Position numbers and translations under genes: made by a program. Shown here one piece after another: positions 17,656 to 32,364 of a stretch of DNA of 64,000 nucleotides; position 1 is the stretch's first letter, and the number at the start of each line of letters is the position of its first letter. Below the pieces are notes generated by a model that was given only the letters and a program-made list of their open reading frames with translations, made no database searches and was not told the DNA's origin. Location of the stretch: positions 1 through 64,000 of IMG/VR virus record IMGVR_UViG_3300042197_002762, one strand, 5' to 3'. The DNA is from a virus.

Positions 17656-17734
17656 TGTAAGTTGTTGATTATGAAGTACTTACGCCGCGCCGCCGGGCGC
17701 GCCGCCGTAACCCCTTGATTTTCAACGTGCTACA
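17656..17734. repeat. Composite boundary repeat R1
   Basis: Left half GTAAGT...ACTTAC, GC core CCGCGCCGCCGGGCGCGCC, right half CGTAACCCC...GTGCTACA. First of twelve copies. It lies 68 nt beyond the rIIA stop codon on the minus strand, downstream of the rIIA terminator. Confidence 0.8.
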
Positions 17735-17743
17735 ATTTAATGC

Positions 17744-17780
17744 AAAAAAATGCGGGGCGCAGCACTCGCCACGCCCCGCA
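17744..17780 (-). terminator. Intrinsic terminator after rIIA-like gene
   Basis: On the minus strand TGCGGGGCG pairs with CGCCCCGCA (nine perfect pairs) and is followed by seven T. It is 22 nt past the stop codon at 17802. Confidence 0.85.
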
Positions 17781-17801
17781 CCACCACACCACCACTAACA
17801 A

Positions 17802-20045
17802 TTATACTCCAGCGAGCATGAAGTCGCGGGTCGTAATGTAATCCAAGCAAGCCTCACGATGCTGCTTGTGATTGTCACGATAGGTCTGAAGGTTGTAGGC
17901 ATCAATCGCTTGCAAGACGCGCATGGCGTGAGCAAGTTTGGTTGCTTTGACTTCCATAGCGTCGAGCTTGGCACTACGTTTGGAACGGACGGCAGTAGTC
18001 TTGATGCCAATGTGACCGCAGATGGAATCAATGCAAGACTTGATCGTGGAGTCATTGGTTTGAGCTTGAAGGCTCAAGACTTCTTCCAGCACACGATGCG
18101 TGTTCGGCGCATTGGTCGCGTTGACCATCTTACGGAGTTCGCCGCGCAAGCATTGGTTCCGTGCGACAAAGTGCGTATGGATTTCGTCAGCATATAGAAC
18201 CTCGCCGCAATTAGATTGAGCTTCAATCTCCTTCAACGCATTGGTGAAGAAAGTTTTGAAGTCCATCACCTTACTGGCTTGAGCTTTCTTTAGAGTAGGG
18301 CCATTCTTGATACCGATGATGGTAGGAACAACGATATCCTTGGTCTTGGTCAAGTCAGCAAGCGTCTTGATCTTGGAGCAGCAAGACATAAGAGCAGTAG
18401 GAGACACTTCGCAACCATTGATCTTGCCCATGAACCGCTCAATCTCAACGTAGCAGTATTTCTTGGGGTCGAGATTCTTGAAGTCAACATCTTCCTCCTG
18501 CCAGTAGTCACTCTTGACCTTGTGATAGGACGAGAGATTTTTGGCATTGGGGTCAATCGAAAACACTTTGCTGGTGTGTTTGCTACGATTCGCCATGAGC
18601 GTGTTGCCATTGGCTTTACGAGTTGCGCGAGGCAGGAGAACCTTGGGCAACGTAGCCATGTCAACAATGTCAGCGTCAATCAGTCCGAGATTGTCCATCT
18701 GACGTTTGCGGTCAGCAGCATTGAGAGGCGTGAACACAATCACCTTGCCATCTTTTTGCAGGAACGGAAAGATGTGGTTGATGACTTGGTTCTGAATCTT
18801 CTTTGTGTTCTCAACGATGGTAATGTCATTGTCGAGCGTCACAAGATGAGTCAGTTCTTCGACCTTGCCACCTTTGACTATGTATGCACCACCGATGTAA
18901 CCTTTGCGCGGAGTATAGAGTCTGAATCCCTTGCTATTGGCAAAGTTGATCGTGAAGTCTTTAATGGTCTTGCCGTTATAATCGTAACCATTCTTACCGC
19001 GCATAGCGTTGCACACAACGTAGTAGGGACTATTGAAGTTGTGCATCTCACCAAGCATACGCTTGAACGACCACAGACTTTGTGCGCCCTTGAGTTGCTT
19101 GCTGATGTCAGCAACGAGGAAGTCACGAATGGCAAGGATACGCTTTTTGAGATTCGCAATCGTGCGATCCGTGTATTGCAAACCTTCACGCGAGGCAGCG
19201 ATGTCGCAGTCACCAATGGCAACGTCGAGTTCGATGTCGCAGTTAGTGAGCAAGCGTTCGATCACCGCTTCGTCGGCATTGTTCTCGTCGAGCTTGAGAG
19301 CATCCGAGCTAATGCGGTAAGCGATGTTACCCATGATGGCAAGGGCTTGACGACCATACGAGTTGCGGTCTGCTTTGAGCAAACGCCAATCGCTACCGCT
19401 ATAAAGAGGATTGCGAGTCTCGTAGGTGAAGTCAGCAGCACCACGGACAACAGGCTTGACCTTGAAGTGCTGGAACAAGTTGCGAGCAGTATTGACGAAA
19501 GTTTCGCAGTCGGCAGGTTTTACTGGAATCACAATTTCAACTCCGTTTGCATCCTTGGTAGGAGCAGACGCGAGTTTAGCGATTTGACCGATCTGCGAGG
19601 GATCAATGTAAGCGTTGTAAGTAGTCTTGATGCCGTTGAGATAGCTATTGATGACAAAGTTGTCACCATAGGCAAAAGCGGACTTACTACCAAGACCTAA
19701 CTGCCCGATGAGGGAGTTACTCTTACGCTTCGTTGATTCACCATAAAAGGCGTAAATCTCTTGAATGTCTTGTTCGGAAAGGCCAATGCCGTAGTCACGA
19801 ATCTTGAGTTCAAGAGAGAGACGAGAAGGAAGCGTGACCTCAATCGGACGATTGTGACCAGCTTCGGTGTGTGCGTCCACAGCGTTGCAGGAATACTCGC
19901 GCAAGACTGCAAGAATCTTGTCGGAATACAACTGGTTGCGGAGGACGTTGAAGATGTGAGCAAGACCTTCCTGCTTGATGCCGAAAGACACCGCGCCTTG
20001 AATACCTTGCGTGACAACATTAGCTTTGGGTTGAGTAACGATCAT
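17802..20045 (-). CDS. rIIA: rIIA-like GHKL ATPase
   Basis: A 747-residue protein. Near the N-terminus are GHKL/HATPase motifs: the N-box VLREYSCNAVDAH (about residues 47-59), then KIRDYGIGLS (the D-x-G-x-G ATP-lid motif) and GQLGLGSKSAFAYGD. The rest is long and family-specific, as in T4 rIIA. With the rIIB-like gene just upstream in transcription order it forms the classic pair that, in T4, affects lysis timing and exclusion by lambda Rex; the biochemical role is still unclear. Start set at 20045 (MIVTQPK) because a promoter -10 box ends 22 nt upstream; longer in-frame codons overlap that promoter. Confidence 0.8.
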   Translation of the reverse strand: MIVTQPKANVVTQGIQGAVSFGIKQEGLAHIFNVLRNQLYSDKILAVLREYSCNAVDAHTEAGHNRPIEVTLPSRLSLELKIRDYGIGLSEQDIQEIYAFYGESTKRKSNSLIGQLGLGSKSAFAYGDNFVINSYLNGIKTTYNAYIDPSQIGQIAKLASAPTKDANGVEIVIPVKPADCETFVNTARNLFQHFKVKPVVRGAADFTYETRNPLYSGSDWRLLKADRNSYGRQALAIMGNIAYRISSDALKLDENNADEAVIERLLTNCDIELDVAIGDCDIAASREGLQYTDRTIANLKKRILAIRDFLVADISKQLKGAQSLWSFKRMLGEMHNFNSPYYVVCNAMRGKNGYDYNGKTIKDFTINFANSKGFRLYTPRKGYIGGAYIVKGGKVEELTHLVTLDNDITIVENTKKIQNQVINHIFPFLQKDGKVIVFTPLNAADRKRQMDNLGLIDADIVDMATLPKVLLPRATRKANGNTLMANRSKHTSKVFSIDPNAKNLSSYHKVKSDYWQEEDVDFKNLDPKKYCYVEIERFMGKINGCEVSPTALMSCCSKIKTLADLTKTKDIVVPTIIGIKNGPTLKKAQASKVMDFKTFFTNALKEIEAQSNCGEVLYADEIHTHFVARNQCLRGELRKMVNATNAPNTHRVLEEVLSLQAQTNDSTIKSCIDSICGHIGIKTTAVRSKRSAKLDAMEVKATKLAHAMRVLQAIDAYNLQTYRDNHKQHREACLDYITTRDFMLAGV

Positions 20046-20067
20046 ATTAGTAGTAGGTTGAGTAATC

Positions 20068-20096
20068 AGAATAGCAGCATTTGTGTCGCATGGCAA
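20068..20096 (-). promoter_or_regulatory. Promoter for rIIA-like gene
   Basis: Minus strand TTGCCA (20091-20096), 17 bp, TATTCT (20068-20073); 22-nt leader to the ATG. It lies 20 bp inside repeat R2 relative to the gene. Confidence 0.7.
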
Positions 20097-20115
20097 GAGT
20101 TTTTTTGCAAAAAAA

Positions 20116-20194
20116 TGTAAGTGCCTTAAACTCAACGACTTACACGGCGCGGCGGGGCGCGGCGCTGTAAGTGCCTGGAATTGAACAGGTTACA
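20116..20194. repeat. Composite boundary repeat R2
   Basis: TGTAAGTGCC...ACGACTTACA, core CGGCGCGGCGGGGCGCGGCG, then TGTAAGTGCCTG...CAGGTTACA. It lies between the rIIB terminator and the rIIA promoter. Confidence 0.85.
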
Positions 20195-20211
20195 ACAAAC
20201 ACTATTGGAAC

Positions 20212-20250
20212 AAAAAGTTGGGGGTGAGGCCCACCACAAGCCCCACCCCC
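20212..20250 (-). terminator. Intrinsic terminator after rIIB-like gene
   Basis: On the minus strand GGGGGTG pairs with CACCCCC, followed by AACTTTTTG. It is 19 nt past the stop codon at 20269. Confidence 0.75.
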
Positions 20251-20268
20251 ATGTCGCACCACCGACGA

Positions 20269-21117
20269 CTACCGCTTCCGCATGAAGCGACCTTTCGCAT
20301 CCCTCACATTGTAGTAAGGAGTTTCTTCCGCATCGTAGTTGAATGAGGGGGAATAATCCTCATCATCGGAAGTGAACTCCGTGTTGAGCGGTTTCCGATA
20401 AACCTGCTCAAAGTCCTTGACAACCTCGTAGCGAGCAGTCCGCAACTTCTGGCAGTCACAATCTTTCGGAACCGAAACAACATCCGAAGGATTGATCTTG
20501 ACGATCACCAAGCGCGAGTTGCCACCACCGAAGGTTTTAGCATACTCATAGCTACCAGCATGGAAACCATACGAGCAACCAACATCGGCGTCGTCGCAGA
20601 CAGCGTTGCGCGGCATTTCCAAAACCTCGCCAACACCATTGAAGAACTTGCCACTATGATGATCCATGTAATCCTCGCGGACACTCTTGTAGGCCAAGAA
20701 GTCGCCATCTTCACAGATCGGAAGATGCTTGTGTTCAAGGAACTTGTAAAGCTCCGAAACAGCACGACGAGAAGGATTCGCCATGAGTTTCTCAAGGAAC
20801 TTGGCAAGCGGAGCGAACGGCAAACCATCATCCATGAAGTCGAAGATACGATCCACGACATAGTTGTGCAAGGGTTCACCTTGGTAGTAGATCACGCCAT
20901 CGGCAATCTCGATACCGCCGACATTATCGGCATTGAACTTGCGGGTGATAGACTCTGAAACGTCGAACAGGGAGTCGAGCGTGTCAATGTCTCCAGTAGC
21001 GAGGCAAGTAAGAGCCTCGGTGAAAGACGGATGATTACAAGTCATCGTCTTGGGAGTGCCATCAATTACTGCGGTGATGGACTCGTCGGTTTTGATTAGT
21101 GCGTTTAGTGCTTTCAT
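20269..21117 (-). CDS. rIIB: rIIB-like protein
   Basis: A 282-residue protein. The C-terminal two thirds carry the rIIB signature: PICEDGDFLAYKSVREDYMDHHSGKF, then GEVLEMPRNAVCDD, CSYGFHAGSYEYA, LVIVKINPSDVVSVPKDC and KLRTARYEVV. The N-terminal part (about 1-90) is divergent. It is transcribed first, its end separated from the rIIA gene by a terminator, repeat R2 and a new promoter, so the pair is not a simple operon here. Confidence 0.85.
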   Translation of the reverse strand: MKALNALIKTDESITAVIDGTPKTMTCNHPSFTEALTCLATGDIDTLDSLFDVSESITRKFNADNVGGIEIADGVIYYQGEPLHNYVVDRIFDFMDDGLPFAPLAKFLEKLMANPSRRAVSELYKFLEHKHLPICEDGDFLAYKSVREDYMDHHSGKFFNGVGEVLEMPRNAVCDDADVGCSYGFHAGSYEYAKTFGGGNSRLVIVKINPSDVVSVPKDCDCQKLRTARYEVVKDFEQVYRKPLNTEFTSDDEDYSPSFNYDAEETPYYNVRDAKGRFMRKR

Positions 21118-21125
21118 CGTTTATT

Positions 21126-21154
21126 ATATTATGCGTTTTTGGTCTGATTGTCAA
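21126..21154 (-). promoter_or_regulatory. Promoter for rIIB-like gene
   Basis: Minus strand TTGACA (21149-21154), 17 bp, TAATAT (21126-21131), 8 nt to the ATG. The -35 overlaps the stop region of the upstream gene. Confidence 0.85.
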
Positions 21155-21396
21155 ACTGATTTCTTATCCATTTGGAAAGAAAAATGGCGAACACCAACCA
21201 GCGCGAGAATATCGTGGTTGACCTTGGAAGTCTCGCGCAATACTTTCATGTATTTGGTGAAAATTTGTTTTTTGTTAAGTCCAGCGTCCACCATCAAATC
21301 CCAGAGTTGCTTGTGCATGGCCGTGCCGTAGTGAGCAACGGCGAAAGCCAAGTCCTCATAGCGGCGAACAGAGTAGGTGTCTTTGAGAATCTTCAT
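21151..21396 (-). CDS. Unknown protein
   Basis: An 81-residue basic, mainly helical protein with no recognised family. Its ATG overlaps the stop of the 61-residue gene upstream (ATGA). Its stop codon overlaps the rIIB promoter -35 box. Confidence 0.65.
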   Translation of the reverse strand: MKILKDTYSVRRYEDLAFAVAHYGTAMHKQLWDLMVDAGLNKKQIFTKYMKVLRETSKVNHDILALVGVRHFSFQMDKKSV

Positions 21397-21578
21397 TGTA
21401 GGTCTGTGATTTCGATAGCATTGACGATATACTTCTTGACATTCCCGACAATATCGGGAAACTCAATCAAAAGCGTTTGCTTGTTGTCAAGGTAAGTAAT
21501 CATAGGAACCGAATAGCCTTTTTCGCTCTGGTCGAGCTTTTCAGCAATGCGGTAAATGAGGTCGGTGCTATTTTTCAT
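21393..21578 (-). CDS. Unknown small protein
   Basis: A 61-residue protein with an N-terminal helix and a beta-type remainder. No family recognised. First gene of a two-gene unit; the ATG lies 6 nt after the -10 box. Confidence 0.65.
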   Translation of the reverse strand: MKNSTDLIYRIAEKLDQSEKGYSVPMITYLDNKQTLLIEFPDIVGNVKKYIVNAIEITDLQ

Positions 21579-21584
21579 CCTCTA

Positions 21585-21613
21585 AAGGTATCGCATTTTG
21601 CGATTGGTGTCAA
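21585..21613 (-). promoter_or_regulatory. Promoter for 21578-21151 genes
   Basis: Minus strand TTGACA (21608-21613), 17 bp, TACCTT (21585-21590), 6 nt to the ATG. Confidence 0.75.
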
Positions 21614-21620
21614 GTGTTTT

Positions 21621-21697
21621 TGTAAGTGCCTGGGATTCAAATACTTACGCCGCGCCGCCCCGCGCGCAATTGTAAGTCATTCATTACCAAATAGTTA
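21621..21697. repeat. Composite boundary repeat R3
   Basis: TGTAAGTGCC..., core CCGCGCCGCCCCGCGCGC, right half TGTAAGTCATTC... imperfect. Its right end directly abuts the 3' end of tRNA-Lys. Confidence 0.75.
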
Positions 21698-21769
21698 TGG
21701 AACGGGTGAGGCTCGAACTCACAACCAACGCCTTAAAAGGGCGCTGCTCTACCATTGAGCTACCATTCC
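21698..21769 (-). tRNA. tRNA-Lys (UUU)
   Basis: Acceptor GGAATGG/CCGTTCC, anticodon arm GCGCC/GGCGT with loop CTTTTAA (anticodon TTT), T-loop TTCGAGC, discriminator A. Confidence 0.92.
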
Positions 21770-21777
21770 TCAAATAG

Positions 21778-21850
21778 TGGGGCGAGTAGGATTCGAACCT
21801 ACAACCAATCGATTATGAGCCGACTGCTCTGACCATTGAGCTATCACCCC
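21778..21850 (-). tRNA. tRNA-Met (CAU), elongator-type or Ile2
   Basis: Acceptor GGGGTGA/TCGCCCC with a normal 1-72 pair (so not an initiator), anticodon loop CTCATAA (anticodon CAT), T-loop TTCGAAT, discriminator A. A CAT anticodon could also serve Ile if lysidine-modified; sequence does not settle it. Confidence 0.88.
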
Positions 21851-21933
21851 AGAAATTTAATCAGTCCGTAAATAGCAAACGCCCAGACCAAAATAGTTAC
21901 AGGTAAAGCTACAAATAGAACAATAGATTTCAT
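21844..21933 (-). CDS. Tiny membrane peptide, 29 residues
   Basis: A 29-codon frame that overlaps the stop of the 82-residue gene as ATGA and ends inside the 5' end of tRNA-Met. The product is nearly all hydrophobic (SIVLFVALPVTILVWAFAIY), a single membrane helix. Overlap on both sides suggests selection on the arrangement. Confidence 0.5.
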   Translation of the reverse strand: MKSIVLFVALPVTILVWAFAIYGLIKFLG

Positions 21934-22178
21934 AATTCAAAATATGATTGTTGATATTCAGTTTGTTCTACATCGTAGTCTGGAACCCAGATGTTCTCAT
22001 CGTTATGAGAACGACAAGCCAGTAGCAAATCTGTATGTTCCGTGTAGTCGTGATCGTAATACGGCTGCTCGGAATCTTCGTAATCAACGATTTCCCAAGT
22101 CTTGCCATCGTATTTTACATAGTCACCAATGACGAGCATTTCGCCATCGTAGTCAGCGGGGCAGATGTTTTTACTCAT
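21930..22178 (-). CDS. Unknown acidic protein
   Basis: An 82-residue acidic protein, rich in Asp, Tyr and Glu. The N-terminal half (GDYVKYDGKTWEIVDYE) reads like a small SH3-like barrel as in many phage accessory proteins. No catalytic motif. ATGA overlaps at both ends put it in the 22501-21844 operon. Confidence 0.65.
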   Translation of the reverse strand: MSKNICPADYDGEMLVIGDYVKYDGKTWEIVDYEDSEQPYYDHDYTEHTDLLLACRSHNDENIWVPDYDVEQTEYQQSYFEL

Positions 22179-22501
22179 AGTTTGAATATTGATTCGGGAT
22201 TAGGATAAACTTTTTTGCGTCTAATGTAAAGCCCCCAAAATTTTAGAGCGCGATCTTCGATTTGACAAAAGAGCTTGCCATGATCTAACGTCCCTCCGTA
22301 GAAGTGGCAAACCTCATGGACAACGTAGTAGATGACGAATTTTTCTCCGTGTTTGAACGCCCACTCTGGAATCGAAAACCACCCCTTCGTGGTATAGGCG
22401 CGACCCCGCTTGTTGGGTGTAATTTTGGCCTTGGGTCTAATGGGGAGTCCGAGGAATCTTGCGGTGAGATTTGCGATGGCTTGGATTTCATTTAGTTTCA
22501 T
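22175..22501 (-). CDS. SprT-like metallopeptidase-type protein
   Basis: A 108-residue protein with H62-E63-x-x-H66 in YYVVHEVCHFYGG followed by a third possible ligand in LDHGKLF, the pattern of small SprT/WSS1-like zinc proteases. Such proteins can cleave protein-DNA crosslinks or act on unknown targets. It is shorter than bacterial SprT (about 165) and lacks the C-terminal zinc ribbon. First gene of its operon. Confidence 0.65.
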   Translation of the reverse strand: MKLNEIQAIANLTARFLGLPIRPKAKITPNKRGRAYTTKGWFSIPEWAFKHGEKFVIYYVVHEVCHFYGGTLDHGKLFCQIEDRALKFWGLYIRRKKVYPNPESIFKL

Positions 22502-22512
22502 GGTGTAGCCTT

Positions 22513-22541
22513 ACAGTATGGGATTTTGCGTGTGCGGTCAA
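22513..22541 (-). promoter_or_regulatory. Promoter for SprT-like operon
   Basis: Minus strand TTGACC (22536-22541), 17 bp, TACTGT (22513-22518), 11 nt to the ATG. R4 begins 18 bp upstream. Confidence 0.7.
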
Positions 22542-22559
22542 GATATTTTTTCATTAAAA

Positions 22560-22638
22560 TGTAAGTGCCTGGAAACCAACGAGTTATGCCGCGCGGCGGG
22601 GCGCGGCGGCGTAAGTGCCTGGGAATGAACGACTTACA
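22560..22638. repeat. Composite boundary repeat R4
   Basis: TGTAAGTGCCTGG..., core CCGCGCGGCGGGGCGCGGCG, then CGTAAGTGCCTGGG...GACTTACA. Confidence 0.85.
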
Positions 22639-22659
22639 TAAAAAAGAATTTTTGCAAAG

Positions 22660-22688
22660 AAAAAACTTGACAGGTTGCCCTGTCAAGT
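22660..22688 (-). terminator. Intrinsic terminator after DUF932-like gene
   Basis: On the minus strand ACTTGACAGG pairs with CCTGTCAAGT (ten perfect pairs) around a GCAA tetraloop, followed by a T run. It is 18 nt past the stop codon at 22707. Confidence 0.9.
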
Positions 22689-22706
22689 CTTTCTGAGTTT
22701 GTTCGC

Positions 22707-23486: not shown

Positions 23487-23494
23487 ACTTCATA

Positions 23495-23523
23495 AGAATA
23501 CGTTGTTTTGCGTGACAGTGCAA
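23495..23523 (-). promoter_or_regulatory. Promoter for DUF932-like gene
   Basis: Minus strand TTGCAC (23518-23523), 17 bp, TATTCT (23495-23500), 8 nt to the ATG. Upstream lies a TTGGCACG block (23574-23581) and R5. Confidence 0.75.
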
Positions 23524-23600: not shown

Positions 23601-23679
23601 CGTAAGGCGTTGATTTTCAACGACTTACGCGGCGCGGCGGGGCGCGCCCTCGTAACCCCATGATTACGAGGGCTTTACG
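23601..23679. repeat. Composite boundary repeat R5
   Basis: Left half CGTAAGGCGTTGA/TCAACGACTTACG is an almost perfect 13-bp inverted repeat. Core GGCGCGGCGGGGCGCGCC. Right half CGTAACCCC...GGGCTTTACG. The stop codon of the 23681-23851 gene abuts it. Confidence 0.9.
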
Positions 23680-23680
23680 C

Positions 23681-23851
23681 CTATTTGAGGAATTTTGCGA
23701 CTTGGATTCGGTTGGCCTTCTTCAGTAGGTCAGTGCGACCCAAGAAACCAGCTTTCTTCCGGCGCGACAAGACAGAGACAACACCAACTTCCTTGCGGAA
23801 GCGAACAGTCTCGCCCTTGTAGTTGTAGATAGCACCTTCGATGAGTTTCAT
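23681..23851 (-). CDS. Small basic protein, unknown
   Basis: A 56-residue basic protein with a beta-type start (GAIYNYKGETVRFRKEVGVVSVL) and a Lys-rich helical end. The ATG at 23851 has a strong Shine-Dalgarno, AAGGAGG, 7 nt upstream, which rules out longer in-frame starts. Second gene after the 74-residue gene. Function unknown. Confidence 0.65.
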   Translation of the reverse strand: MKLIEGAIYNYKGETVRFRKEVGVVSVLSRRKKAGFLGRTDLLKKANRIQVAKFLK

Positions 23852-24907: not shown

Positions 24908-24975
24908 TGTAAGTGCCTGGAAATGAACGACTTACACGGCGCGGCGGGGCGCGGCGCTGTAAGTGCTTGATAATG
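24908..24975. repeat. Composite boundary repeat R6, fused to tRNA-Cys end
   Basis: TGTAAGTGCCTGG...GACTTACA, core CGGCGCGGCGGGGCGCGGCG, then TGTAAGTGCTTGATAATG. The right hairpin is completed by AGCAC of the tRNA-Cys acceptor end, so the repeat and the tRNA 3' end are merged. Confidence 0.85.
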
Positions 24976-25047
24976 AGCACCTTGCTGGATTCGAACCAGC
25001 GTATAAGAGTTTTGCAGACTCTGGCCTTACCACTTGGCGAAAGGTGC
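24976..25047 (-). tRNA. tRNA-Cys (GCA)
   Basis: Acceptor GCACCTT/AAGGTGC, anticodon arm AGAGT/ACTCT with loop CTGCAAA (anticodon GCA), T-arm CTGG/CCAG with TTCGAAT, discriminator T as required for Cys. Confidence 0.93.
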
Positions 25048-26196: not shown

Positions 26197-26448
26197 ATGG
26201 ATAGAAATAGTTTACAATTAATAATTAATAATAATAAAGCATTACAAGACTTGGATAGATACTTCAAGGATAGTGGAGAATTGCATCTCATATGTGACAA
26301 AATAGGTAGGGAGCGTGACCCTGAGAACAGGGAACAGCTTATCAGTAAGATGAAGTGGAAGAATAAACAATTTGCAGAATCAATTGTCAAGTTGGCATCG
26401 ATGATAACTACACTAAAGCATAATCCACAAAGTCCTATCGCTCAATGA
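26197..26448 (+). CDS. Unknown helical protein, only plus-strand gene of the block
   Basis: An 83-residue charged helical protein. It is the only rightward gene between 16.6 and 33.9 kb. It ends within the left half of repeat R7, whose left hairpin is incomplete, as if the gene was inserted beside or grew into the repeat. AT-rich codon use unlike its neighbours supports later arrival. Function unknown. Confidence 0.6.
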   Translation: MDRNSLQLIINNNKALQDLDRYFKDSGELHLICDKIGRERDPENREQLISKMKWKNKQFAESIVKLASMITTLKHNPQSPIAQ

Positions 26449-26504
26449 CTTACGACGGGCGGCGGGGCGCGCCGCCGTAAGTGGTTGATGTCCAACGCTT
26501 TACG
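26442..26504. repeat. Composite boundary repeat R7 (left half truncated)
   Basis: Only the distal arm AATGACTTACG of the left hairpin remains; core ACGGGCGGCGGGGCGCGCC and right half CGTAAGTGGTTGA...CAACGCTTTACG are intact. The 26197-26448 gene overlaps the lost part. Confidence 0.8.
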
Positions 26505-26521: not shown

Positions 26522-26555
26522 AAAAAGTCAAACGCCCGTTTGAAGGGGCGTTGAC
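26522..26555 (-). terminator. Intrinsic terminator
   Basis: On the minus strand GTCAACGCCCC pairs with GGGCGTTTGAC (one bulged base), followed by five T. It is 22 nt past the stop codon at 26578. Confidence 0.8.
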
Positions 26556-26577
26556 TATGACACAACTATGACAAAGG

Positions 26578-27036
26578 TTAGTCCTCTGTCTCGCTCACCC
26601 AATCCGGCGCGCCGCCGTCGAGTTGCTGGTAGATGTGCGTTGGAGTTTTGGCGAACAGCATGAAACTTTCGCGTGGGAAAGATTCAAACTCTGCGCGTGC
26701 AGCTTGCGCGGCGTCACGGCGAAACTTTTCGCCATTCGGTTTCTTGTGAAAGCGCGGACGCGCCTTGTATTGTTCGCTCACCGGAGAGTCTTGCCAATTT
26801 GTCATAGTTTCGTATGTCATAGCGCGAAGCATATCCGCTTCCGTGGAGAGGAAGTAGGAGAAGTTATCGGAGAGTTCGTGTAAGTAGCTGCCGAGTTCAC
26901 CGATGCCAGTTGCGCCCCAGTTGAAGAAGCGGTTGAACGTGCGTTCAACTTGTTCGCGTGTTCCGTTGAGGCCGACAGCGATGCCGTTGCCGTATGCGCT
27001 GATGATGATGTTTGCTTGTTCCATTGTGTTTGTCAT
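26578..27036 (-). CDS. Unknown protein
   Basis: A 152-residue protein with an N-terminal beta-type segment (NIIISAYGNGIAVGLNG), a helical middle and an acidic C-terminus. No family recognised. Start at 27036 (MTNTMEQ); a second ATG four codons in is possible. It follows a 44-residue gene by 4 nt. Confidence 0.65.
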   Translation of the reverse strand: MTNTMEQANIIISAYGNGIAVGLNGTREQVERTFNRFFNWGATGIGELGSYLHELSDNFSYFLSTEADMLRAMTYETMTNWQDSPVSEQYKARPRFHKKPNGEKFRRDAAQAARAEFESFPRESFMLFAKTPTHIYQQLDGGAPDWVSETED

Positions 27037-27040
27037 AAAA

Positions 27041-27175: not shown

Positions 27176-27181
27176 GAGAAA

Positions 27182-27209
27182 AGAATAGCACAGGGGCGCG
27201 AGAGTGCAA
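27182..27209 (-). promoter_or_regulatory. Promoter for 27175 gene
   Basis: Minus strand TTGCAC (27204-27209), 16 bp, TATTCT (27182-27187), 6 nt to the ATG. Preceded by an AAAAAAATC tract like other cassettes. Confidence 0.8.
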
Positions 27210-27242
27210 CGGATTTTTTTGCATTTTTAGAAAGTATTTTTG

Positions 27243-27286
27243 TTGACGATTTCTCAAACGGGCGTTTGAATCCCAAAGTTGGCACG
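27243..27286. promoter_or_regulatory. Palindromic operator and divergent promoter-like cassette (R8 copy)
   Basis: Between the minus-strand promoter and R8 lie GTATTTTTGTTGACG, a 16-bp palindrome TCAAACGGGCGTTTGA (27254-27269) and TTGGCACG (27279-27286). Read rightward, TTGACG and TTGAAT are 17 bp apart and the palindrome overlaps the latter. The same order recurs near 28828-28881, 30105-30131 and 31290-31343. Confidence 0.55.
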
Positions 27287-27305
27287 CTTTCTGCTCCTTG
27301 TTTTG

Positions 27306-27384
27306 CGTAAGTCGTTCATTTTCAAGCACTTACGCTGGCGCGGGGGGCGCGCCGCCGTAAGTCGTTGATTTACAACGCTTTACG
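27306..27384. repeat. Composite boundary repeat R8
   Basis: CGTAAGTCGTTCA...AAGCACTTACG, core GGCGCGGGGGGCGCGCCGCC, CGTAAGTCGTTGA...CAACGCTTTACG. The stop codon of the 27385-27540 gene follows at once. Confidence 0.9.
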
Positions 27385-27540
27385 TTACCGCAATCTATCG
27401 CGCAAGTCGAGGCAACGCTCCCACGCTATGACAAACATTTTCGAGAGTGTCATAAAGCCGTGACGTTCCAATTTTTGCGCGAGGCTGAAGCAACCTTCCG
27501 ACAAGCGGAACAGATTTTTTCGTGCGATTAGGTTTGTCAT
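27385..27540 (-). CDS. Unknown small basic protein
   Basis: A 51-residue helical basic protein (TNLIARKNLFRLSEG start). The ATG at 27540 overlaps the stop of the tiny upstream frame (ATGA), so longer in-frame starts are unlikely. No family recognised. It ends directly against R8. Confidence 0.6.
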   Translation of the reverse strand: MTNLIARKNLFRLSEGCFSLAQKLERHGFMTLSKMFVIAWERCLDLRDRLR

Positions 27541-27608
27541 AGTTTTCCGTTCTGATGAATTGCAAAGGCACACGCAGCCACCACTACAAGCAGGCAGATG
27601 ATTTCCAT
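27537..27608 (-). CDS. Tiny membrane or secreted peptide, 23 residues
   Basis: A 23-codon frame of one hydrophobic segment (EIICLLVVVAACAFAIH) and a polar end, overlapping the next ATG as ATGA. It begins 9 nt after the GP88-like stop. Same design as the other tiny membrane peptides. Confidence 0.45.
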   Translation of the reverse strand: MEIICLLVVVAACAFAIHQNGKL

Positions 27609-27617
27609 AGGGGTTCA

Positions 27618-28301
27618 TTATACACCAACTTGCACCACGAATCCAGAAGTATCGCGGAGAGCTTTGCCCTTTGCTTTGAGTCCGACGATCACACCTTGCG
27701 GATCGAGAAAGCGTAAGTCGCTTTCGTCGCCGTTTATGACAGTCTTGCCGAGGTAGGTTTCGGGCAACTCATTAAAGACAACCGCCACGTTGCCACCAGC
27801 AGCAACAACGGCGTGGACGCGATGCTGATTGTCCTCCTTACGCGAGAAAGTAAGATGATAATTTTTCGGTAGTTCGCCATTCAAAAATTGCATCATGCGC
27901 TGAAGGTTCGGCGTGTAGTCGTAAAACTGAATTGACGGAAAACGCGCCATGTCGATGAGCATATGCCAAGGAAGGTCAGAAAGCACGTTCGGACGCACAG
28001 CAACGGGCATTTTATTTTTAACGCTCCATTTTTCTGCGTTGTGCAATTCCTTATTCATCTGTGCGAGAAACGTGTTGCGCTCGTCGATGAAAAAACGAGA
28101 CTTTGCAAGGCGAGCGTCTTGCACGTTTGAGAAAATGCCCATGCCCGAAGTGTCGAGACAAGCGGCCTCGCATCCTGCCGAGCGATGCGGACAGAATTGT
28201 TTTCCGCTTTTGCCAGCGGGAGAGAGTGACAGGCCGTAAGTGCGCCAGCCGAGTTTCTCGCCTTTTTTGATTTTGGTGTTGTTGGTGCTGAGTAGTTTCA
28301 T
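27618..28301 (-). CDS. GP88-family protein
   Basis: A 227-residue protein with the distinctive pattern of the mycobacteriophage gp88-like family: LSLSPAGKSGKQFCPHRSAGCEAACLDTSGMG with conserved Cys, VAVRPNVLSDLPW, IQFYDYTPNLQRM, LPKNYHLTFSRKEDN, GGNVAVVF, GDESDLRFLDPQGVIVGLKAKGKA and SGFVV. The Cys cluster suggests a metal or iron-sulfur site; the activity is not established. Start at 28301 gives the usual family opening. Confidence 0.8.
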   Translation of the reverse strand: MKLLSTNNTKIKKGEKLGWRTYGLSLSPAGKSGKQFCPHRSAGCEAACLDTSGMGIFSNVQDARLAKSRFFIDERNTFLAQMNKELHNAEKWSVKNKMPVAVRPNVLSDLPWHMLIDMARFPSIQFYDYTPNLQRMMQFLNGELPKNYHLTFSRKEDNQHRVHAVVAAGGNVAVVFNELPETYLGKTVINGDESDLRFLDPQGVIVGLKAKGKALRDTSGFVVQVGV

Positions 28302-28326
28302 GGTGATGATTTTTGCAGATTTTAAG

Positions 28327-28566
28327 TTAGAGGGCAAGAGCTTTTTTCACCCTTGCGATGTCGCGCTTACTGTGCGTGTAGAGTTTCGCGTCGATGCTTT
28401 CCAGATTGGAGAGCAAACGATAGGCGGCGATTTTTTCGCGTGCGTTACGGCGCGCAAACTTTGAGACGATGCTGTTGCGGTCGCGCAAGCTGTTCGTGAT
28501 GTCCTTTTGAAGCGCAACACGCGCATGAATGAGGGCTTCGTAGAGTTCGCGTTTGGTGATGTTCAT
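28327..28566 (-). CDS. Unknown basic helical protein
   Basis: A 79-residue Arg/Lys-rich helical protein, possibly nucleic-acid binding. No family recognised. Upstream TTGCAA and a weak -10 (GAAAAT) overlap the end of the previous gene, so it may have its own promoter. Confidence 0.65.
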   Translation of the reverse strand: MNITKRELYEALIHARVALQKDITNSLRDRNSIVSKFARRNAREKIAAYRLLSNLESIDAKLYTHSKRDIARVKKALAL

Positions 28567-28604
28567 ATTTTTATTTTCTCCGATTTTGAGTTAGGTTGCA
28601 AGGA

Positions 28605-28760
28605 TTATTTTTCGAGAAGTGCCGCAAGCTGTTTGCGAAGCTTGCCCAAGTGATTGAGGAGGACAGTCGTTTGATCGTCGAGCATAGGATCGAGAAGATC
28701 CTCCGCCACTTGTTCGATTTTTGCGGTGAGGGTTTGGATTTGGATTTCTTTCTCTGTCAT
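28605..28760 (-). CDS. Small coiled-coil protein
   Basis: A 51-residue helical protein with heptad-like Leu/Ile spacing (EIQIQTLTAKIEQVAEDLL). ATG 6 nt after the -10 box, so the message is leaderless. No family recognised. Confidence 0.6.
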   Translation of the reverse strand: MTEKEIQIQTLTAKIEQVAEDLLDPMLDDQTTVLLNHLGKLRKQLAALLEK

Positions 28761-28766
28761 GCTTAC

Positions 28767-28794
28767 AATGTATCACAGCCGCGTAAAAATGCAA
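28767..28794 (-). promoter_or_regulatory. Promoter for 28760 gene
   Basis: Minus strand TTGCAT (28789-28794), 16 bp, TACATT (28767-28772), 6 nt to the ATG. Confidence 0.75.
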
Positions 28795-28827
28795 CGATTT
28801 TTTTTCAATTCCGTAAAAGTATTTTTG

Positions 28828-28881
28828 TTGACACTTTTTCAAACAGGCGTTTGAACCACTATGACATTCATTGTTGGCACG
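28828..28881. promoter_or_regulatory. Operator/divergent promoter-like cassette (R9 copy)
   Basis: Rightward TTGACA (28828-28833), 17 bp, TTGAAC; palindrome TCAAACAGGCGTTTGA (28839-28854, one mismatch) over the -10 position; TTGGCACG at 28874-28881 with CTGC in the -12 position. Confidence 0.5.
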
Positions 28882-28900
28882 GTTCCTGCGCACTATGTTG

Positions 28901-28979
28901 CGTAAGTCGCTGATATCCAAGCACTTACGCCGCGCGGCGGGGCGCGCCGCCGTAAGTCGTTGATTATTAGTGCTTTACG
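28901..28979. repeat. Composite boundary repeat R9
   Basis: CGTAAGTCGCTGA...AAGCACTTACG, core CCGCGCGGCGGGGCGCGCCG, CGTAAGTCGTTGA...GTGCTTTACG. The last codons and TAA of the 28967-29110 gene lie inside its right half. Confidence 0.9.
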
Positions 28980-29110
28980 ATGTAGTCGCTGATCTGGCCG
29001 TTAGCCGCCATGCGCTCAAGCCATGTGGAAGTATTGTAGTGCCACAGGCTCATGGCGAGCAGTGAAACAGGCGTTTGAATTCCGAGCAGTTGTTTTATCC
29101 AGTTTGTCAT
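28967..29110 (-). CDS. Unknown small protein ending in the repeat
   Basis: A 47-residue protein with a Trp-containing hydrophobic centre (LLGIQTPVSLLAMSLWHY). The final residues and stop come from repeat R9. No family recognised. Confidence 0.55.
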   Translation of the reverse strand: MTNWIKQLLGIQTPVSLLAMSLWHYNTSTWLERMAANGQISDYIVKH

Positions 29111-29114
29111 AGTG

Positions 29115-29300
29115 TTATGACACCGATTCTTCGTCGGTGCCGAGAATTTTTTCCATGCGCTCTTTCAGTAGCGTATAGACAAGGTGCGCGTCATGCACAG
29201 CGTCAACGCAGTCTTTCCGCATACCTTCCATGAGGAAGTCTTTTGCAAAGAAGCGAACGCCATTTGATTCAAGGGCTTTTTGTATGTTGGGCGTGATCAT
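29115..29300 (-). CDS. Unknown small protein
   Basis: A 61-residue helical protein with a C-terminal acidic tail. The ATG overlaps the upstream stop (ATGA). No family recognised. Confidence 0.6.
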   Translation of the reverse strand: MITPNIQKALESNGVRFFAKDFLMEGMRKDCVDAVHDAHLVYTLLKERMEKILGTDEESVS

Positions 29301-29497
29301 GATTCAGAATCATCGAGGAACATTCCGTCGAAAGCAAGAGGTTTTTCCAGATGGTCAAACATGGTGTTGACATCTTTTTGCAGTTCCTTCTTTTCGTGCA
29401 AGTTGAGGCAAGCTGTCAAAAGCATTACCAGAATGAGGATGAAGGTTGAGAGAGACATTACATAGGCAATGCTGTCGAATGTGATGTATTTTTTCAT
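29297..29497 (-). CDS. Small membrane protein
   Basis: A 66-residue protein: a short basic start (KKYITFDS), one membrane helix (IAYVMSLSTFILILVMLLTA, about residues 10-29) and a charged C-terminal helix. A Cys follows the hydrophobic stretch but not in a clean lipobox. Start at 29497 follows the tiny membrane peptide by 4 nt. Function unknown. Confidence 0.55.
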   Translation of the reverse strand: MKKYITFDSIAYVMSLSTFILILVMLLTACLNLHEKKELQKDVNTMFDHLEKPLAFDGMFLDDSES

Positions 29498-29501
29498 GTA
29501 A

Positions 29502-29591
29502 TTATTTTTTTCGGGAATCAGCCCAGAGGATGAGGAACGCGCAAGCGGAAGGGAAGATGCACAGGTAAAAGAGTGGAACCCAGATTGACAT
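29502..29591 (-). CDS. Tiny membrane peptide, 29 residues
   Basis: A 29-codon frame of one hydrophobic helix (WVPLFYLCIFPSACAFLILW) with a basic end (DSRKK). It is 3 nt downstream of the 71-residue gene and 4 nt upstream of the next ATG. Same design as the other tiny peptides. Confidence 0.5.
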   Translation of the reverse strand: MSIWVPLFYLCIFPSACAFLILWADSRKK

Positions 29592-29594
29592 AGT

Positions 29595-29810
29595 TTATTT
29601 ATATGATCCAACAGGGATGTTGGGCGTTGCAGAGTAGACCGCTTCCAGAAAACGACTTTCATCAAAGCGCGGATTCTGTTCGGTGAAGTATTTCGCAAAG
29701 TCCAAGGCGAGGACTTCGACAGCTTCGTATTCTCCGATGGGAGCGTGTTGTTTTTCAGCGAGACGCTTGCCCAAGATTTTTGCGATGGCCTCGAATTGTT
29801 TTTTTGTCAT
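29595..29810 (-). CDS. Unknown small protein
   Basis: A 71-residue protein with helices rich in Lys, Glu and Ala. Start at 29810, 6 nt after a weak -10 box; a longer frame overlaps the promoter. No family recognised. Confidence 0.6.
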   Translation of the reverse strand: MTKKQFEAIAKILGKRLAEKQHAPIGEYEAVEVLALDFAKYFTEQNPRFDESRFLEAVYSATPNIPVGSYK

Positions 29811-29816
29811 GGTGTT

Positions 29817-29845
29817 ATTGTGGTTTGTTTTGTGGTTAGGGTCAA
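29817..29845 (-). promoter_or_regulatory. Promoter for 29810 gene
   Basis: Minus strand TTGACC (29840-29845), 17 bp, CACAAT (29817-29822), 6 nt to the ATG. Confidence 0.55.
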
Positions 29846-29857
29846 GAGATTTTTTCA

Positions 29858-30037
29858 CTACCAGCGGTTGCGGTAGCGGTCGAGCCTTTCGGCGCGGTTC
29901 ATGCGCTCGATCTCACGCTCGTAAGCGTCAGGGTTGATCTTGTAGGCAGGATCTTCACGATCAATGCCGAGTGGGAGGTCGAGGGTTGCTTCGCGTTCTT
30001 CGTCGCGCCAGCTTCTGGTGTATCCGTTTCTGTTCAT
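29858..30037 (-). CDS. Small Arg/Asp-rich protein
   Basis: A 59-residue highly charged protein with no hydrophobic core, possibly disordered or nucleic-acid binding. ATG 6 nt after the -10 box. No family recognised. Confidence 0.6.
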   Translation of the reverse strand: MNRNGYTRSWRDEEREATLDLPLGIDREDPAYKINPDAYEREIERMNRAERLDRYRNRW

Positions 30038-30043
30038 GTATAC

Positions 30044-30071
30044 AGAATAGCACAGGGCCGCGAAAATGCAA
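30044..30071 (-). promoter_or_regulatory. Promoter for 30037 gene
   Basis: Minus strand TTGCAT (30066-30071), 16 bp, TATTCT (30044-30049), 6 nt to the ATG. The spacer (CGCGG...CTGTGC) resembles those at 27182 and 32175. Confidence 0.8.
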
Positions 30072-30104
30072 CGATTTTTTTTGCGATTGTTGAAAGTATT
30101 TTTG

Positions 30105-30131
30105 TTGACGTTTCGGCAAACGAGTGTTTGA
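30105..30131. promoter_or_regulatory. Operator/divergent promoter-like cassette (R10 copy)
   Basis: Rightward TTGACG (30105-30110), 17 bp, TTGAAA, with a degraded palindrome GCAAACGAGTGTTTGA (30116-30131). This copy lacks the TTGGCACG block. Confidence 0.4.
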
Positions 30132-30162
30132 AAAAAAGACTATGACAAAGAGTGTCATAATG

Positions 30163-30240
30163 CACAAGTCACTGATATTCAAGCACTTACGCTCGCGCGC
30201 GGGGCGCGCCGTCGTAAGTCGTTGATATTCAACGCTTTAC
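30163..30240. repeat. Composite boundary repeat R10
   Basis: Left arm degraded (CACAAGTC) but AAGCACTTACG is kept; core CTCGCGCGCGGGGCGCGCC; right CGTAAGTCGTTGA...CAACGCTTTAC. The stop codon of the 30237 gene lies in its last bases. Confidence 0.85.
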
Positions 30241-30392
30241 TCGTCAGACCAACCGCGAAAAAACTTCGCCTTGCGCGCGAATTTTTTCTTGACACGCATG
30301 GCGAACGAAGGCTTGCAAGTTGTCTTGCGAACACTTCGCTCTATCGCGCGCGCGAGTGGGCGCGTGTCGATTGTCATAATGATTTTGCTCAT
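30237..30392 (-). CDS. Small basic protein, paralogue of 32360-32536
   Basis: A 51-residue very basic protein. The N-terminal half (IDTRPLARAIERSVRKT) matches the 58-residue product of 32360-32536 (IDTKPLAQAIDKSVHRT), while the C-terminal half here is basic and soluble instead of membrane-spanning. Ends inside R10. Confidence 0.6.
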   Translation of the reverse strand: MSKIIMTIDTRPLARAIERSVRKTTCKPSFAMRVKKKFARKAKFFRGWSDE

Positions 30393-30393
30393 G

Positions 30394-30624
30394 TTAGTTG
30401 ACTCCGTAAGAAAACTTTTTGTCGCGCAGTTGCTGAACCTCACGCGCCAGAACGAGGTTCGTTCCACACAAGAGATTCAGTTTGTGCTCGTGCATGGTGA
30501 TGGTGTGCAAGGCTTGTGCCAGCAGTTCTTTCAACTGTGTCATATCAGCCTCCTGCGCCTGGATAGTTTTTTCATGCTTGATGAGAGTCTCCAGCGATTT
30601 TATGATGCCGTCTTGGTTTGTCAT
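30394..30624 (-). CDS. Coiled-coil protein
   Basis: A 76-residue helical protein (IIKSLETLIKHEKTIQAQEA) with a probable coiled coil over most of its length. Start at 30624 (MTNQDG). It ends just before the next ATG. Function unknown. Confidence 0.6.
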   Translation of the reverse strand: MTNQDGIIKSLETLIKHEKTIQAQEADMTQLKELLAQALHTITMHEHKLNLLCGTNLVLAREVQQLRDKKFSYGVN

Positions 30625-30628
30625 AGTG

Positions 30629-30790
30629 TTAGTGTTTAGGCTTGGGTTCGGGGCGAGCACACGGATCGTTGCGGTGACGCTCCTCGGCGTAGCCGAAAAG
30701 GATGTCGAACGCTTGTTCGGGTGTGAGGTTATCTTCGGGTTCGTCGAAGTTCCAGACTTCGGGCCAGCCAGTTGTGGTGTTTTCTGTCAT
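30629..30790 (-). CDS. Small acidic protein
   Basis: A 53-residue acidic protein with a Pro/Lys-rich C-terminus. Start at 30790, 6 nt after a TATACT box; longer frames run back through the promoter and the upstream gene. No family recognised. Confidence 0.6.
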   Translation of the reverse strand: MTENTTTGWPEVWNFDEPEDNLTPEQAFDILFGYAEERHRNDPCARPEPKPKH

Positions 30791-30796
30791 ATTGAA

Positions 30797-30825
30797 AGTA
30801 TAGGAGATGCTTACTCCAAAGGCAA
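30797..30825 (-). promoter_or_regulatory. Promoter for 30790 gene
   Basis: Minus strand TTGCCT (30820-30825), 17 bp, TATACT (30797-30802), 6 nt to the ATG. The -35 lies in the end of the upstream gene. Confidence 0.8.
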
Positions 30826-31014
30826 GCAAATTGTGGACTGGATCGCCAACCCGCACAGGTGCGAGTAGTCGTAACCTTTTTGGTCGAGAGTTTTTTTCAT
30901 CTGTTCGATGCGGCGCGTGGCCTTATTGATCGCCGTGCGAAGCGTGGCCGCTTCGATTTCGATGATGACCGGAAGCTCTCCGGTCTTGGTGAAGGTGATG
31001 ACGTATGGTTTCAT
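30811..31014 (-). CDS. Unknown small protein
   Basis: A 67-residue protein with a beta-type start (PYVITFTKTGELPVIIEIEA) and a basic helix, the style of many small phage proteins. Its end overlaps the next promoter. A TTGACT box sits at the right distance upstream, but the -10 is poor. Confidence 0.6.
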   Translation of the reverse strand: MKPYVITFTKTGELPVIIEIEAATLRTAINKATRRIEQMKKTLDQKGYDYSHLCGLAIQSTICLPLE

Positions 31015-31045
31015 GGTTAGAATTTTAGCAGGTTAGTGGTGAGAG

Positions 31046-31222
31046 TCAAGCGATTTTCTTGACCGCTACCTTCCAGTAGGGGAAGTAAAGCCCCAAGTAG
31101 CGAGCGGTGATTTGCACACCATCTTTGCACCAGATGGTGCGTTTGTTGTTTTGCGAGACGAAGGGGATGCCCTTCATGGCGTTGAGGACGATTTCCTTTT
31201 TGTGGGTTCCTTTTGTTATCAT
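31046..31222 (-). CDS. Unknown small basic protein
   Basis: A 58-residue basic protein with a C-terminal aromatic beta-type segment (ARYLGLYFPYWKVAVKK). Start at 31222, 6 nt after the -10. No family recognised. Confidence 0.6.
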   Translation of the reverse strand: MITKGTHKKEIVLNAMKGIPFVSQNNKRTIWCKDGVQITARYLGLYFPYWKVAVKKIA

Positions 31223-31228
31223 GCTTAC

Positions 31229-31256
31229 ACTATACCACAGATCGCGCAAAACGCAA
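31229..31256 (-). promoter_or_regulatory. Promoter for 31222 gene
   Basis: Minus strand TTGCGT (31251-31256), 16 bp, TATAGT (31229-31234), 6 nt to the ATG. Confidence 0.75.
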
Positions 31257-31289
31257 GGGATTTTTTTGCGATTAGCGAAAGTATTTTTG

Positions 31290-31343
31290 TTGACGTTTTG
31301 TCAAACGGACGTTTGAATCACTATGACATTCATTGTTGGCACG
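31290..31343. promoter_or_regulatory. Operator/divergent promoter-like cassette (R11 copy)
   Basis: Rightward TTGACG (31290-31295), 17 bp, TTGAAT; palindrome TCAAACGGACGTTTGA (31301-31316); TTGGCACG at 31336-31343. Confidence 0.5.
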
Positions 31344-31362
31344 GTTCATGAGCAGCATATTG

Positions 31363-31441
31363 CGTAAGTCGCTGATTATCAAGCACTTACGACGGGCGGC
31401 GGGGCGCGCCGTCGTAAGTCGTTGAATACCAAGGGTTTATG
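31363..31441. repeat. Composite boundary repeat R11
   Basis: CGTAAGTCGCTGA...AAGCACTTACG, core ACGGGCGGCGGGGCGCGCC, then CGTAAGTCGTTGA with a degraded right arm (GGGTTTATG). Confidence 0.85.
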
Positions 31442-31458
31442 CAACATGGGATTTGGGC

Positions 31459-31490
31459 AAATTGAAACGCCCGTTTAGAACGGGCGTTTC
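31459..31490 (-). terminator. Perfect 12-bp hairpin, probable terminator
   Basis: GAAACGCCCGTT and AACGGGCGTTTC form a perfect 12-bp stem with a 3-nt loop (31464-31490). On the minus strand AATTT follows, a weak T tract. It resembles the terminator at 26522 and shares its GGGCAAA flank. It lies about 80 nt past the 31568 stop codon, in a gene-free stretch (31223-31567) that otherwise holds the promoter cassette and R11. Confidence 0.55.
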
Positions 31491-31567
31491 GCTTCCTCAT
31501 CGTTTATTCCCGCGTCATGGAGACACGCATCGAAACGTTCGGAAAGTTATGACACAGCTATGACAAA

Positions 31568-31780
31568 CTAGTTGTCCCAGCCCTCCTGCTCGCCCCAATC
31601 CGCGAGGTCGTCGAGGCCCGACCCATCACCAGGCCATTGGCCCTCGCACCCATCGTAGGGTTGCGGTTCGGGTTCCTGCTCGACGGCAGGCTCTGCCGCG
31701 AACGTGCCGTGAGCCTCCTCATGCTCGCTGGCGTATTCGTCGGATTGCGGTTGCGTGTTGAAGTCGTCGGTGATGTTCAT
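31568..31780 (-). CDS. Acidic protein, paralogue of 27041-27175
   Basis: A 70-residue acidic Glu/Pro/Gly-rich protein. The N-terminal block DDFNTQPQSDEYASEHE matches the 44-residue product of 27041-27175; the rest is a low-complexity acidic tail with Trp residues. Possibly a DNA mimic or disordered binder; inference only. Confidence 0.6.
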   Translation of the reverse strand: MNITDDFNTQPQSDEYASEHEEAHGTFAAEPAVEQEPEPQPYDGCEGQWPGDGSGLDDLADWGEQEGWDN

Positions 31781-31786
31781 AGTGTT

Positions 31787-31815
31787 AGGATATGATGAGT
31801 TGAGGTTAATGGCAA
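31787..31815 (-). promoter_or_regulatory. Promoter for 31780 gene
   Basis: Minus strand TTGCCA (31810-31815), 17 bp, TATCCT (31787-31792), 6 nt to the ATG. Confidence 0.75.
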
Positions 31816-31823
31816 GAGATTTT

Positions 31824-32168
31824 TTATGCAGCCAAGGCAGGGCGCACACGGAACACAAGCTGTAGCCTTTCGGGGTGAACCTTGCCAGCGACGAAAGCCG
31901 CAAGACTATCGCTGTCAAAGTTGAAGCGCGAGAGAGGATGAGAGTTAGCCCAGCGCAATCCATCGGGCAAGCCGAGGTCGATGAGTTGCTGCACCTCTGC
32001 GTTAGAGGGCACAGAGTAGGGCGACCAGCCGAGAGTGGCGATGGTCTTGCCAGACTCGACGCTGACGAGCTCATGCCAGAGTTTAGTGCAATCGCCATCG
32101 AAGTCCTCCGAGACGACGAGCGTGCAAAGGGTTCCGTTGACGTTGAATTGTGTTTCTTTATCTTTCAT
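31824..32168 (-). CDS. Unknown protein
   Basis: A 114-residue protein with an N-terminal beta-type domain (TQFNVNGTLCTLVVSEDFDG) and a mixed C-terminus. Start at 32168, 6 nt after the -10; a longer frame runs through the promoter. No family recognised. Confidence 0.65.
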   Translation of the reverse strand: MKDKETQFNVNGTLCTLVVSEDFDGDCTKLWHELVSVESGKTIATLGWSPYSVPSNAEVQQLIDLGLPDGLRWANSHPLSRFNFDSDSLAAFVAGKVHPERLQLVFRVRPALAA

Positions 32169-32174
32169 GCTTAT

Positions 32175-32202
32175 AGAATAGCACAGCGCGCGGAAAATGC
32201 AA
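32175..32202 (-). promoter_or_regulatory. Promoter for 32168 gene
   Basis: Minus strand TTGCAT (32197-32202), 16 bp, TATTCT (32175-32180), 6 nt to the ATG. TTGGCACG occurs upstream at 32259-32266, without the palindrome. Confidence 0.8.
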
Positions 32203-32285
32203 CGATTTTTTTTGCGATTGTGCAAAGTATTTTTGTTGATGAAAAAAAGTTTTGGGAGTTGGCACGCTTCATGAATGTGTGTTTG

Positions 32286-32364
32286 CGTAAGTCGTTCATT
32301 ATCAAGCACTTACGTTTCGCGGCGGGGCGCGCCGGCGTAAGTCGTTGAACGACAACAACTTACA
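32286..32364. repeat. Composite boundary repeat R12
   Basis: CGTAAGTCGTTCA...AAGCACTTACG, core TTCGCGGCGGGGCGCGCCGG, CGTAAGTCGTTG...CAACAACTTACA. The stop codon of the 32360 gene lies inside its right arm. Confidence 0.9.

Follow-up and report, generated by a model that had tools for sequence, protein, structure and literature searches.

Twelve copies of a 77-bp element (R1-R12) stand between neighboring transcription units in the phage genome deposited as IMG/VR virus record IMGVR_UViG_3300042197_002762, of which we analyzed positions 1 to 64,000 (the window). On balance we favor reading this repeat as an IHF-type DNA boundary element at the 3' ends of transcription units, comparable to the bacterial RIB/RIP repeats, which doubles as a recombination joint.

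A repeat search and a mechanical scan of the window yielded the twelve copies in register, each of 77 bp. The claim of an earlier note on this DNA that they occur between 17.6 and 32.4 kb and nowhere else holds for the entire 178,478-bp record, in which a scan for the core pattern and the palindromes found no such copy outside a GC-rich island (17.6-33.3 kb, 46-48% GC, compared to ~28-37% in the rest of the genome). The strict pattern of arms plus core matched nine times in the window and not once in 100 dinucleotide shuffles. Each element consists of the palindrome GTAA-N4-TTGA-N3-TCAA-N4-TTAC, a GC-rich core of 23 bp and a second palindrome of identical design, with four half-sites, named a, b, c and d in order, two on each side of the core. 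Instead of the 60-80 bp given earlier, the length is rigid: 59 copies could be aligned over 77 columns without a single indel, with 11 invariant columns and a spacing of N15/N23/N15, and the two subtypes described before are both present. The half-sites show almost perfect dyad symmetry (a versus the reverse complement of d, r = 0.992; the reverse complement of b versus c, r = 0.997), and all four profiles are nearly equal, the inner half-sites (b, c) being stronger than the outer ones (a, d).

Two pattern scans of viral contigs revealed the 77-bp element in ~35 further uncultured phage contigs, in which the core sequence varies by lineage, with an AT-rich palindromic core in three of them, within a constant frame of arms and 15/23/15 spacing; contig L034 has palindromes at additional spacings too. 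The centers of paired palindromes are 50 bp apart in 171 pairs, the next commonest spacing being represented by 6. One strong long-range dependency, a negative one, links the inner half-sites: columns 20 and 58 pair in 13 of 123 copies, against ~52 (minimum 34) under permutation. Three of the four core groups obey this non-pairing rule strongly, the remaining one weakly or not at all; the rule may disfavor a long perfect palindrome or confer direction on the element, and the asymmetry of the inner half-sites that it describes is strict. No homolog of the element was found by blastn among 50,697 phage records, and Rfam recognized tRNAs only in the region 15-35 kb, the element matching no curated family. 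A match of the AT-rich core in Fulvivirga was dismissed as chance. Three element copies in tandem, with a spacing of 170 bp, were seen in L015 (12244-12660) and L018 (2684-3100), and the repeat-dense loci of relatives are GC-rich like the island, whose genes lie mostly on the minus strand.

With respect to the genes, the placement of the copies is highly regular. Eleven of the twelve separate the 3' end of a minus-strand gene or tRNA from the next promoter, which was found by reading to lie directly beside the repeat in 11/12 cases. The earlier description had assigned this position to every copy, and R7 departs from it: it lies between convergent genes, because a plus-strand open reading frame (ORF) at 26197-26448, which relatives share (g36), has its 3' end within R7. 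The relatives also hold the element at transcription-unit boundaries, and the proposed marking of such boundaries is thus supported in the window and beyond it. At five boundaries (R1, R2, R4, R7 and R11) intrinsic terminators separate the stop codon from the repeat, and the order at terminator-bearing boundaries is terminator, repeat, promoter. Over all labeled loci, a strict terminator was present in 15 of 48 boundary gaps (shuffled mean 0.2); we used this strict test with its shuffle control, as a looser one fitted 46 of 50 gaps.

The earlier note had also considered the copies as RNA 3'-end hairpins, two per copy. When folded as a single strand, ~81% of copies are predicted to form one long, imperfect hairpin (a with d, b with c, plus core), and two separate hairpins per element were therefore dropped. 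In both candidate folds the proportion of paired cells was below that of shuffled sequences (two-hairpin fold, 73.4% versus 74.7%; long-hairpin fold, 73.9% versus 77.1%), compensatory changes were not in excess in either, and RNAalifold returned no consensus structure for the element. Substitutions track the symmetry of the DNA half-sites and not sense-strand wobble. Most repeats are not followed by the U tract that, together with a GC hairpin, defines an intrinsic terminator, and termination as the main role was discarded since separate intrinsic terminators already precede the repeats. An RNA hairpin or terminator role of the 77-bp element is unlikely because pairing lies below that of shuffles, no structure is found by RNAalifold and terminators exist separately. 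We accordingly give little credence to an RNA-level element acting between early genes as terminator, mRNA 3'-end protector or RNase III target, even though the predicted long hairpin and a core that is C-rich in gene sense (128 versus 31 copies) would fit it.

The earlier suggestion of a protein-binding site fares better, as the dyad-symmetric half-sites match a known consensus. IHF recognizes the sequence WATCAANNNNTTR (WATCAA-N4-TTR), of which the half-site GTAA-N4-TTGA is the reverse complement. In the alignment, column 14 holds W (A or T), columns 15-19 read ATCAA, columns 20-23 are free (N), columns 24-25 are an invariant TT and column 26 is A or G (R). Among 123 unique copies, at least eight of the nine consensus letters are present in 113 b, 99 c, 83 d and 66 a half-sites, as judged against the general consensus, and 0% of shuffled elements reach this level. 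Exact IHF sites number 9 in the 924 bp of repeats and 32 in the other 177.5 kb (9.7 versus 0.18 per kb, a ~54-fold difference), and the columns of the IHF consensus carry 1.41 bits, those of the N positions 0.76 bits. The consensus 77-mer gave weak blast matches to plasmids (E 0.05-0.2). Plasmid BPP5P1 carries the identical palindrome GTAAGTCGTTGAAAATCAACGACTTAC in its oriT region (16/16 arm letters), and the oriT of the IncW plasmid R7K has nearly the same 27-bp palindrome (15/16 arm letters) adjacent to the hairpin and nic site of the relaxase. For the oriT of R388, of the same family as R7K, the inverted repeat IR3 is reported to be the site of IHF, IR2 that of the relaxase and IR4 that of TrwA (PMC4814116).

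The role as a recombination joint was addressed by comparison across genomes, for which the genes lying between repeats at all loci were grouped and labeled by simple ORF clustering. The loci share a largely stable backbone gene order with repeats at equivalent boundaries, and some cassettes appear or disappear together with one repeat each, the clearest being g37 plus its repeat between g11 and g9. When two repeats of different genomes share the upstream gene and differ in the downstream gene, their left halves are more similar than their right halves (0.84 versus 0.72), and the relation is inverted when the downstream gene is shared and the upstream gene differs (0.70 versus 0.77); with both neighbors equal the values are 0.84/0.83, and with neither equal 0.70/0.72. 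The left half of a repeat thus goes with the gene upstream of it and the right half with the gene downstream, which indicates that cassettes are exchanged by breaks within the repeat itself. For the main group this switch maps to the core (statistic 0.195; none of 60 label permutations exceeded 0.068). Breakpoints of exchange accordingly fall within the element, in the core or adjacent to it, and the chimeric halves, the switch in the core and the presence or absence of the g37 unit all support the joint role raised before.

When two copies of one genome are compared, their longest stretch of identity measures 13 bp in the median and is most often located in the core. The minimal homology reported for RecA or Red recombination is ~30 bp, but phage enzymes tolerate diverged sequence (PMC2327257), which makes the core a plausible site of homeologous exchange; the route of exchange is probably homologous or homeologous recombination, and RecA-like and RuvB-like proteins are encoded by the phage. 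Neither a tyrosine recombinase (PF00589) nor a serine recombinase (PF00239) nor a Y1 transposase (PF01797) was found in 13 records. This, together with cassettes that hold promoters and several genes, a largely stable backbone order and a core that differs between lineages, makes it very unlikely that the element is an integron-like site for site-specific recombination, in which the core would be the crossover and the b/c asymmetry would set the direction, despite crossovers that map to the core, the shared orientation of the cassettes, inner half-sites that nearly always differ at one position (the 20-58 rule) and the gain and loss of single-gene units with their repeat. We see just as slim a chance for a directional phage cassette system with IHF-bent asymmetric 77-bp joints and an unrecognized recombinase, which would capture and swap cassettes in one orientation and use the non-pairing rule as a direction code.

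Several points weigh against an IHF-type boundary element and joint. IHF binding to the element is inferred from sequence likeness, and an HU or IHF encoded by the phage was not detected, so that a host protein would be needed. The R7K palindrome appears to equal the published IR3, judging from its IHF consensus and from its position beside IR2. Conservation at columns 22-23 (AC), 27 and 50-51 exceeds what the IHF consensus asks for, the strict non-pairing at the N columns 20/58 and 21/57 is not predicted by IHF, and R2, R4 and R7 contain only one or two good IHF matches each. With regard to the joint, the copies are related by descent and the gene labels are simple, and the effective sample sizes are therefore below the pair counts.

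Some of these features could be explained by another dimeric DNA-binding protein, either a phage regulator or a nucleoid protein, in which case the IHF likeness would be convergent and the boundary and joint roles would stand. The conservation past the consensus, the fixed 50-bp distance between palindrome centers and the b/c asymmetry are in line with such a protein. However, W in column 14, R in column 26 and the N4 spacer fit the IHF consensus exactly, and the same palindrome occurs in the oriT of a plasmid family for which an IHF site is reported there, and we regard a protein other than IHF as rather unlikely.

Under the IHF-type reading, host IHF or a close HU/IHF-type protein would most likely bind and sharply bend both palindromes. 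The bent nucleoprotein would then insulate the 3' end of each early unit from the promoter that follows, and would be a functional counterpart of the IHF-binding RIB/RIP repeats found where bacterial transcription units end. Since this element recurs at all of these boundaries, it also serves as the joint for the gain, loss and exchange of cassettes. If this is true, a single repeat combines transcription-unit boundary and cassette breakpoint and provides a concrete joint for phage mosaicism in dozens of genomes. It would also suggest that large phages put host IHF at early transcription-unit boundaries, with IHF as a domain organizer of phage genomes, and an IHF-type element would aid host prediction by pointing to bacteria with IHF.

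Table 1. Repeat copies, intrinsic terminators and promoter unit in the window (positions of the window).
Feature	Position	Strand	Context
R1	17657..17733	-	final boundary within the island; follows RIIA-like gene plus terminator
R2	20117..20193	-	GCC subtype; flanked by RIIB-like gene (plus terminator) and RIIA-like promoter
R3	21622..21698	-	GCC subtype; after tRNA-Met/tRNA-Lys; core orientation opposite to the other eleven
R4	22561..22637	-	GCC subtype; follows DUF932 gene plus terminator
R5	23602..23678	-	directly after minus-strand ORF ending at 23681
R6	24909..24985	-	GCC subtype; overlaps tRNA-Cys 3' end
R7	26427..26503	-	convergent genes on either side (plus ORF 26197-26448, minus ORF 26578-27036)
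R8	27307..27383	-	g11 on one side, g9 promoter on the other
R9	28902..28978	-	overlaps stop codon of ORF 28967-29110
R10	30164..30240	-	overlaps g2 stop codon (30237)
R11	31364..31440	-	after terminator at 31482-31468
R12	32287..32363	-	first element along the direction of transcription
Intrinsic terminator	17749..17782	-	between RIIA-like stop and R1
Intrinsic terminator	20219..20251	-	between RIIB-like stop and R2
Intrinsic terminator ACTTGACAGG-GCAA-CCTGTCAAGT-T6	22665..22688	-	between DUF932 stop and R4
Intrinsic terminator	26531..26552	-	between ORF 26578-27036 and R7
Intrinsic terminator	31468..31482	-	upstream of R11 in gene sense
Promoter unit after R9 (gene sense)	28746..28896	-	CGTGCCAA motif, TCAAACnnnnGTTTGA palindrome, TTGCAT-N17-TACATT, N6-ATG

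The promoter unit following R9 recurs beside R8 and R11 and partly beside R10 and R12 (Table 1). The CGTGCCAA motif is common to the intervals between repeat and promoter at R5, R8, R9, R11 and R12 (23.5, 27.2, 28.8, 31.3 and 32.2 kb), several of which also hold TCAAACnnnnGTTTGA, likely an operator or activator site. Repeat and promoter together form a duplicated unit of ~190 bp, with 82% identity between the R9 and R11 versions. A sigma-54 reading of TTGGCACG (plus strand) was rejected, since by reading the GC at -12 is absent beside R5, R11 and R12. On the minus strand between 20.0 and 33.2 kb, many cassette-first genes show a -35/-10 pair in which TANNNT stands exactly six nucleotides (N6) before the ATG, a layout that predicts leaderless mRNAs for these genes, and a Shine-Dalgarno motif is missing from most phage genes. 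On the plus strand at 38-62 kb a TGTAAT-rich motif often precedes structural genes and is possibly a late promoter. Between tRNA-Asp and R1 there is a tRNA-like sequence (17477-17557, minus strand) with the anticodon TTC by eye and an odd T arm, which was not called by ARAGORN. The phage proteins (10436-11374 and L054-L059) include RuvB-like and RecA-like proteins, DNA polymerase III alpha, DnaB, a class II ribonucleotide reductase and a subtilase. The phage terminase is only distantly related to cultured phages, and the relatives of the RIIA-like protein are distant as well.

Several known systems share part of these properties. Integron attC arrays, including phage-borne ones (PMC9892861), likewise consist of cassettes that share a direction and end in an imperfect palindrome on the 3' side, but no integrase was found in the 13 records, the promoters lie within the cassettes and the element length is fixed; the outer ends read GTAA...TTAC by inspection, and the attC R box is GTTRRRY / RYYYAAC. 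Mycobacteriophage stoperators and SAS/ESAS (PMC3203893) are dispersed intergenic phage repeats as well, and the ESAS inverted repeat is conserved with given genes; unlike the 77-bp element, however, ESAS are found at gene starts and have a single 17-bp inverted repeat and a variable spacer. The oriT of the IncW/R388 family, with its IHF site IR3 (ibs), also has a near-identical palindrome of 27 bp next to a GC-rich inverted repeat, yet this is a single copy close to the relaxase nic site and lacks the second palindrome.

IHF-binding repeats of enterobacteria are the subject of Boccard and Prentki (1993), according to the title as cited in PMC3733652. These RIB/RIP elements (IHF-binding BIME) are similar in being repeated palindromic elements at the 3' ends of transcription units, and their IHF binding has a putative counterpart in the strong and enriched match of the phage element to the IHF consensus; they differ in that the phage palindromes are themselves IHF-like sites, four per element, with a fixed length of 77 bp and a location in phages. 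REP modules, which are GTAG-tagged palindromes, were not recognizable, as there is no consistent GTAG in the 59-copy alignment, the ends reading GTAA/TTAC, and a REP/RAYT system was rejected with the Y1 transposase PF01797 not found in the 13 records. The mobile regulatory cassettes of T4-type phages, with promoter and stem-loop (Arbiol et al. 2010), reportedly also combine a repeat with an early promoter among small early genes and are shuffled with joints in the repeat; the resemblance seen in the earlier note thus stands for layout and shuffling, but the 77-bp element is without a selected stem-loop and the phage, with its DNA polymerase III alpha, is not demonstrably T4-type. While failing defining features of each (REP modules in the one, a selected stem-loop in the other), the element would act like both RIB/RIP repeats and T4 cassettes.

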